From positions 1 to 64,000 of the forward strand of contig SUTA01000004.1 in the NCBI GenBank assembly GCA_015063135.1: a stretch of 64,000 nucleotides of DNA, written 5' to 3'. Positions 12,809 through 14,239 of the stretch are shown in pieces. The notes under the pieces are model-generated. The model was not told the origin of the DNA and did not search any database. It worked only from the letters and a program-made list of their open reading frames with translations. Source of the stretch: Thermoplasmata archaeon (GTDB lineage Archaea > Thermoplasmatota > Thermoplasmata > Methanomassiliicoccales > Methanomethylophilaceae). The number at the start of each line of letters is the position of its first letter. The stretch's first letter is position 1. A program made the translations under genes and the position numbers.

Positions 12809-12821
12809 AAAATGACCAGCA

Positions 12822-12837
12822 ACAAAAACGAGCGGCA
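12822..12837 (+). repeat. left (sub)terminal inverted repeat of the IS
   Basis: ACAAAAACGAGCGGCA, an exact reverse complement of 14203-14218. It is followed by a run of ten Cs at 12840-12849. Confidence 0.85.
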
Positions 12838-12917
12838 AACCCCCCCCCCGAGGATGGGTCGCAAAGGATGAAGAAGTGCGACATTCATTCTCGATCGCTT
12901 AAGGAGGCGAATGCCGC

Positions 12918-13943
12918 ATGAGATACATTGGCTTAGATGTACATAAGGATAATATCACGGCCTGCGTGCTCACGAGCACGGGCAAGCCGAAGTTCGAGAA
13001 GGATTTCATCAAGGGTTCCGGGCAATGGGACCTCTCCGAGCTGCTGGGTTTCGGGGACAAGGACGGGTTCTGCGTGATGATGGAATCCGGTACGTACGCG
13101 TATCAGCCTTTCAGGTTCTTTTCGGATCTGGGGATCGAGACACATGTGGTCCACGCCCAGGCGCTGAAGGTCATAACGAAATCGGACAAGAAGACCGACA
13201 GGAAGGACGCCTACACCATCGCGAGGATGCTGAGGCTGTGGAAGAGGGGGGACGTCGACCTCCAGATGGCGTTCATGCCGACCCGCGAGCAATGCGAGCT
13301 CAAGGACGTATGCAGATACCGCGAGGAGATCTCGAAGAAGATAGGCGACGAGACCAGGAGGATCAAATCCCACATGTCCAGGAACTGCCAGCATCTTCCG
13401 GATGATTTCGACAACTTCCAGACCAGGAAGGCCAGGGATTATGTGAGGTCCGCCTTCCCGGCGGACATCACACTGATGAGTCGCATGGCCGACCTGGAGA
13501 GGCTAATCGAAGAGAGGGATTCGGTCCAGAAGGAGGTGGAATCCAGGCTCCCGGGTTCCAGGGAGGTGGAGGTCCTGATGACCGTGCCGGGCATCGCCAG
13601 GCAGACCGCCGTCCAGATAATGTCCATGATAGTGGACATCGACAGGTTCGATGATGCGGAGAAGCTCTGCGCGTACTTCGGCATGGTGCCGAGGGTCAGG
13701 GATTCGGGGGGCAAGGAGCATCACGGCCGCATGACCAAGAACGGTGACAGGATGATGAGGGCGGTGATGGAACGTGTGACGCAGTCACACGTCCAGTACT
13801 GCGACTCGTCCGTCACCCGGTACTACAAGAGGAAGTGCTCGGAGATGGGCACGAAGAAGGCGCTCATAACGGCATCGAGGAAGATGCTGTCGGTCATATT
13901 CGCGATGCTGAAGTCCGGCACGGACTTCAGGCTCGCAGCTTGA
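12918..13943 (+). CDS. IS110/IS1111-type DEDD transposase (recombinase)
   Basis: A 341-residue recombinase. The N-terminal RuvC-like DEDD domain shows GLDVHKD (residues 5-11), MESGTYAY near 56, and KKTDRKDAYTIARML near 97-111, supplying the acidic residues. A coiled-coil middle follows (about 120-200). The C-terminal Tnp domain contains LMTVPGIARQTAVQ, AYFGMVPRVRDSGGK and HHGRMTKNGDRMMR, where family members place the catalytic serine. A strong Shine-Dalgarno AAGGAGG lies 10 nt before the ATG. The gene is intact, so the element may be active. The stop codon lies inside a perfect hairpin (13938-13960). Confidence 0.93.
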   Translation: MRYIGLDVHKDNITACVLTSTGKPKFEKDFIKGSGQWDLSELLGFGDKDGFCVMMESGTYAYQPFRFFSDLGIETHVVHAQALKVITKSDKKTDRKDAYTIARMLRLWKRGDVDLQMAFMPTREQCELKDVCRYREEISKKIGDETRRIKSHMSRNCQHLPDDFDNFQTRKARDYVRSAFPADITLMSRMADLERLIEERDSVQKEVESRLPGSREVEVLMTVPGIARQTAVQIMSMIVDIDRFDDAEKLCAYFGMVPRVRDSGGKEHHGRMTKNGDRMMRAVMERVTQSHVQYCDSSVTRYYKRKCSEMGTKKALITASRKMLSVIFAMLKSGTDFRLAA

Positions 13944-13960
13944 ACCGCATCGGTTCAAGC
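13938..13960 (+). repeat. perfect hairpin overlapping the transposase stop
   Basis: GCTTGAACCG and CGGTTCAAGC form a 10-bp perfect stem around a 3-nt loop. It marks the start of the structured non-coding right end of the element. Confidence 0.75.
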
Positions 13961-14202
13961 CTGACTCCCGACATCCGATGCCGATTATGGGATGCGAGGT
14001 CCGAGGTATTCCGCCGTCGCCTTTGTTTGCGGCCATGACCGCCTTGAGAAATTACGGGGTAGGCCGACGACCAGGCTCGAAAAGTCATCCTACGGCCTTC
14101 GGGACCGTCCAAAGTAAATTGCGTTTGCATAACAGGATCGGTGGGTCGGATGCGGGGATCCGTCAGCGTAAGCTATAAACAACAGGCAAAAACATGCAGT
14201 AA
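13961..14202 (+). ncRNA. candidate guide (bridge/seek) RNA region of the IS
   Basis: About 240 bp with no convincing open frame, between the transposase hairpin and the right inverted repeat. In IS1111-group elements the guide RNA that pairs with donor and target DNA is encoded in this position. Potential stem segments include GGATCGGTG with GGGGATCCG near 14137-14162 and CTACGGCC with GGGACCG near 14090. The call rests on element type and position. I cannot fold it or define its ends. Confidence 0.5.
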
Positions 14203-14218
14203 TGCCGCTCGTTTTTGT
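14203..14218 (+). repeat. right (sub)terminal inverted repeat of the IS
   Basis: TGCCGCTCGTTTTTGT, the exact reverse complement of the left repeat. Confidence 0.85.
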
Positions 14219-14239
14219 CAAGTAAACAAAGATAAGGGG

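Follow-up and report, generated by a model that had tools for sequence, protein, structure and literature searches.

A Methanomethylophilaceae MAG, from a rumen/gut methanogen, carries a complete IS1111-type insertion sequence within the 64,000-nucleotide stretch of DNA that we analyzed (the window). From its sequence and those of its relatives, we consider it very probable that the element is an autonomous member of the IS1111 family in which an RNA encoded downstream of the transposase gene selects the target, and we infer that this right-end RNA is made and used. Natural covariation by itself, with several independent guide changes, supports guide function in archaea and places both guide segments and the target to the base.

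Table 1. Features of the element and of its flanks, in window coordinates.
Feature	Positions	Strand	Basis
Complete IS1111-type element, 1407 bp, ACCAGCA...CAA	12815-14221	+	Conservation boundary (14 left and 11 right ends) and published 7/3-bp extensions
Left target half AAATG	12810-12814	+	Same in 14/14 left junctions, unrelated sequence beyond
Right target half GTAAA	14222-14226	+	Same in 11/11 right junctions
Left subterminal inverted repeat (sTIR), ACAAAAACGAGCGGCA	12822-12837	+	16-bp perfect repeat
Right sTIR, TGCCGCTCGTTTTTGT	14203-14218	-	16-bp perfect repeat
Leader hairpin in which the GGAG ribosome site and the first part of the ATG are buried	12876-12919	+	Folds in 12/12 relatives examined, stems differ
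DEDD transposase/recombinase gene, 341 aa	12918-13943	+	Pfam and NCBIfam matches; model resembles IS621 and ISCro4 recombinases
Hairpin enclosing the stop codon, 10 bp, GCTTGAACCG CAT CGGTTCAAGC	13938-13960	+	A hairpin also in most relatives, stem sequence differs
Predicted guide RNA: 13967-13975 paired with 14149-14156 as the outer stem; two internal loops; AGC-GTAA-GCT hairpin (14165-14174) at the end	13967-14174	+	Covariation, 17 sequences
Loop-1 unit: CCGT/ACGG stem round GCGG/CCGC hairpin, laid out as the guide loop	14014-14057	+	Covariation alignment
5' guide GTCAT, complement of left junction ATG|AC (12812-12816)	14084-14088	+	In L149, GTTAT goes with ATA|AC at the left junction
3' guide AAGTAAA, identical to right junction AA|GTAAA (14220-14226)	14112-14118	+	77/77 letters in 11 divergent elements

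The ends and the target were defined from other copies of the element. At least five further partial copies are present in the same genome, and matches were found in nine other genomes of the genus. Alignment of 14 left and 11 right ends, coming from at least seven genomes, revealed an invariant AAATGACCAGCA ahead of the left repeat and CAAGTAAA past the right repeat, outside of which the flanks are unrelated between copies. The original prediction placed an intact element at 12822-14218; it is indeed intact, but these 25 junctions move its ends to 12815-14221 and give the target as AAATG^GTAAA. All 25 junctions of the window's subfamily show this target, always with the element in one orientation. 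The 16-bp perfect subterminal inverted repeats that had been predicted are present, compared with 12-13 bp retained in close relatives, and terminal extensions of 7 bp on the left (ACCAGCA) and 3 bp on the right (CAA) separate them from the shared target halves. Published IS1111 elements extend 7 bp and 3 bp past their repeats (PMC11187229), and this length fixes the ends within the invariant sequence. The position of the element carries a 1-bp ambiguity because it has A as both its first and its last base. Non-coding DNA amounts to 278 bp downstream of the gene versus 103 bp upstream.

Two peculiarities were seen near the left end. A run of ten C at 12839-12848 occurs in this copy alone, in place of the short, mixed stretch of other copies, and possibly reflects slippage or an assembly error. 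Furthermore, the repeat that serves the L124/L127 lineage as its sTIR (TTGAAAAGTGCGAC) persists internally in the window's lineage (12864-12883), which has its own sTIR about 35 nt closer to the outside. The ends of the element appear to have shifted in the course of evolution between these lineages.

AAATG and GTAAA are invariant in every copy of the window's subfamily, as they would be if they were the outermost parts of the element itself, the AAGTAAA of the RNA were an internal repeat under concerted change and insertion were not sequence-specific. We regard this as very improbable given what is found at the corresponding host loci. The left AAA of the target at L007 corresponds to a conserved Lys codon of the orthologues of a gene that ends in Lys-Leu-stop in most of them, and is hence host DNA. 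At the L004 site, the right AAATAGGG continues the 3' trailer of tRNA-Asp in relatives, and the AAA of the right target half forms part of that trailer. Element-free orthologous sites read AAAAATGGGAAAT (L008 site in G009) and ATGTAAAA (L026/L016 site in G006), and the length of IS1111 extensions is independently known (PMC11187229). One locus fits the opposite reading: in G006, a near twin of G005 that lacks the element, the L028/L022 site (L236, G006:C1:562900-563900) falls 9 nt short of the joined flanks, near the length predicted if AAATG and GTAAA belonged to the element. This shortfall could be either a deletion or the scar of an imprecise excision. The search for empty sites, which had been proposed as a check, revealed flanks that are partly host DNA at orthologous loci lacking the element; three sites were near matches, and a perfectly intact orthologous empty site was not found. 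Judged from near-match rather than perfect empty sites, insertion probably occurs without target duplication.

Unoccupied copies of the target AAATGGTAAA number 0-4 per genome; a reversed-pattern control is void for this sequence because it is identical when read backwards. Two other target forms were considered and found less probable. AAATGAC...AGTAAA with 0-6 intervening bases is nearly absent across 31 genomes, and AAATGAGTAAA, which would correspond to 6/3 extensions, occurs in 6 of the 31 genomes and fits less well with an orthologous site that has AAATGG.

To characterize the region downstream of the gene, we aligned 17 right ends, from the stop codon to the terminal AGC-GTAA-GCT hairpin, from elements with transposase identity down to ~55%. 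The consensus fold consists of a long outer stem, stems nested round the first internal loop and a hairpin flanked by the guides. It comprises 28 pairs, 16 of them with changes on both sides, and 96.2% of cells are paired. Sliding the partners by 1-3 columns lowered pairing to 33-47%, and none of 500 shuffles gave a fold as good as the real one; because this very alignment was used to derive the fold, shuffling provides the fairer control. A covariance-model search recovered further RNAs absent from the training set, and Rfam gave no match over a gathering score. Structured non-coding DNA had been predicted after the gene, with covariance folding as the check. The relatives in the alignment indeed share a covarying RNA structure with compensatory changes.

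Within one internal loop of this fold, a conserved hairpin (14092-14108) is flanked by the two guides, GTCAT before it and AAGTAAA after it. The first two letters of each guide correspond to the element's own ends, not to the empty target, and this reading of two element bases by both guides is possibly a new point. The complete agreement between each 3' guide and its own junction (Table 1) has a permutation p of ~5e-6, which is not a strict probability, the elements being related. Five types of 3' guide were found (AAGTAAA, AAGGAAA, GAATAAA, AAATAAA and GAGTAAA), each exactly equal to its own right junction, and at least five switches between them are inferred on the transposase tree. Among 18 elements with a readable right flank, L122 alone deviates, by one letter. 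The guide of a contig-cut element (L191) matches its flank at 7 of 7 letters, and those of four relics without transposase match at 6, 4, 6 and 6 of 7, mismatches of the kind expected if selection no longer acts. Variation of the 5' guide was seen in one element only, L149, in which both guides (GTTAT, AAATAAA) and both flanks (ATA|AC, AA|ATAAA) are altered together. L138, a close relative in the same genome, keeps the usual guide pair.

The AAA of the left target half has only partial complementarity to the RNA (CCT or CTT after GTCAT). This half is therefore not fully accounted for by pairing, and AAATG itself varies in a single element, as might be expected if the transposase protein recognized the target, the RNA served another role such as regulation or stability and the guide matches reflected chance or shared ancestry. 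Such an account is extremely improbable in our estimation: it would have to accommodate five 3' guide types each exact to its own flank, the fact that L138 and L149, close relatives in one genome, have neither guide and neither flank in common, and the finding that altering the RNA altered the targets of bacterial IS1111 elements (PMC11187229). The comparison of loops with flanks put forward in the original prediction thus yielded an RNA that complements the left junction and equals the right one, the two changing together between elements. Together with the conserved fold, this co-change in sequence supports the idea that a guide RNA programs target choice.

The gene upstream encodes the intact DEDD transposase with a C-terminal serine domain that had been recognized in it at the outset. 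The 341-aa protein matches DEDD_Tnp_IS110 (8.5e-22), Transposase_20 (1.9e-22) and an NCBIfam IS110 'RNA-guided transposase' family (7.1e-65), and the family alignment conserves D7, E56, D94 and D97 together with a G--P----SG motif (G255, P258, S263, G264). It is only ~20-30% identical to bacterial plasmid homologues. For a structure model based on the window protein plus four relatives (mean pLDDT 76), the best solved matches were the IS621 and ISCro4 recombinases (E ~2e-9), with TM-scores of only ~0.4, perhaps because the protein has several domains that move and few sequences went into the model. Distant IS110-type transposases of ~30% identity, at G000:C8:16953-17972 and in two G006 copies, each contain one in-frame TAG. 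The host order is known for TAG as a pyrrolysine codon.

Hairpins mark both ends of the gene. The stop codon was predicted to lie within a 10-bp perfect hairpin, and this is what we find; most relatives also form a hairpin there, from other stem sequences. As first proposed, it may be a start or processing signal of the RNA, and the leader hairpin may limit translation. In elements of the L138/L139 type, the 5' arm of the leader hairpin overlaps the left sTIR.

By analogy with bacterial IS1111, the transposase would bind a processed guide RNA, which would pair with both DNA strands on either side of the resident element, so that its ends would be joined as a circle with the predicted junction ...GTTTTTGTCAA joined to ACCAGCAAC... 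The same RNA would lead the circle to a new AAATGGTAAA, where DEDD and serine chemistry would insert it without target duplication; the guides and flanks of L138 and L149 would direct insertion to AAATAATAAA. In the circle, the transposase would be driven by a promoter near the right end. GCTATAAA is conserved close to that end, and is only suggestive as part of a circle-formed promoter.

A single loop may also recognize the integrated donor. This would account for the two element bases in the guides, and it raises the question of how one loop could handle both donor and target. Alternatively, the RNA could resemble the IS110/IS621-type bridge RNA, with separate target and donor loops and loop 1 as the donor loop, a variant of the favored explanation that is compatible with RNA guidance. 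Two units of like layout (stem, hairpin, AAATT) do lie at 14014-14118, as if a guide loop had been duplicated, and published IS1111 predictions place donor-binding nucleotides in a multiloop (PMC11208160). We nevertheless think separate loops unlikely. Loop 1 has no consistent complement at the element ends (circle junction, sTIRs) and its variable bases differ even between copies with identical ends; in addition, the order of the guides is that of IS1111, not IS110 (PMC11187229), and a single loop already covers the two outermost bases at each end of the element.

As to where insertions sit, a gene or tRNA end on the opposite strand lies within ~50 nt of 11 of 23 occupied right flanks, versus 2 of 30 unoccupied AAATGGTAAA sites (Fisher p 0.0009); 13 of the 30 unoccupied sites are inside genes. 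The insertions with the L004 and L123 right flanks lie in the T-rich trailer, 13-15 nt downstream of a tRNA-Asp gene and a tRNA-Thr gene, respectively. That many insertions fall where a gene or tRNA has its T-rich 3' end is possibly a new point, and the bias is no proof of preference at insertion: it could also reflect purging of harmful insertions. Tentatively, and as a possibility that we hold somewhat less than even, one loop would read across both element-host junctions (two element and 3-5 host bases per side), serving donor recognition as well as target capture, and guides would have changed time and again between T-rich (bottom-strand) sites where genes and tRNAs have their 3' ends, in a safe-harbor strategy that follows archaeal transcription terminators.

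At the depth searched, related elements are confined to one archaeal order. A class-wide search gave no close relative beyond the order, viral contigs held no relative of the element, and no paper that deals with insertion sequences of Methanomassiliicoccales turned up in the literature available for searching. The IS1111 seekRNA elements tested experimentally (ISEc11, ISKpn4, ISPa11 and ISPst6) are all bacterial (Siddiquee et al. 2024, PMC11187229), and the named bacterial elements ISShdy1 and ISKpn2, which we took as a yardstick, have uncertain ends.

The transposase C-terminal domain weakly resembles TIGR-Tas. The differences from TIGR-Tas nucleases (PMC12045711) are that no TIGR array was seen and that the protein serves as the transposase of a mobile element. 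With the IS110/IS621 bridge RNA systems (PMC11208160, PMC11208158), the element shares the recombinase fold and a structured RNA whose internal loops, here by prediction, base-pair with DNA. In contrast to those systems, in which the RNA lies in the left end and repeats are very short, its RNA is at the right end, its sTIRs are long and the guide order is reversed. Loop 1, a possible donor-binding loop, shows no consistent match to the donor junction.

In IS1111 seekRNAs, a complement of the top strand lies 5' of a match to the bottom strand, on either side of a hairpin (PMC11187229). The window's element has two short guides in this order, within a non-coding region 3' of the gene. It also has sTIRs with 7/3-bp extensions, a DEDD transposase of ~340 aa with an S/TG motif (here G--P----SG), one orientation at a short fixed target, and natural guide changes among relatives. 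Unlike its bacterial counterparts, it has an archaeal host, another RNA and target (AAATGGTAAA), sTIRs of up to 16 bp, guides that read two element bases, a second loop of like layout, and conserved leader and stop-codon hairpins. The family offers compact 341-aa candidates from methanogens and, in L138 and L149, a natural guide-swap pair within one genome. On its sequence features, the element is an archaeal member of the already published IS1111 seekRNA kind, with several natural guide changes, and not a new kind.
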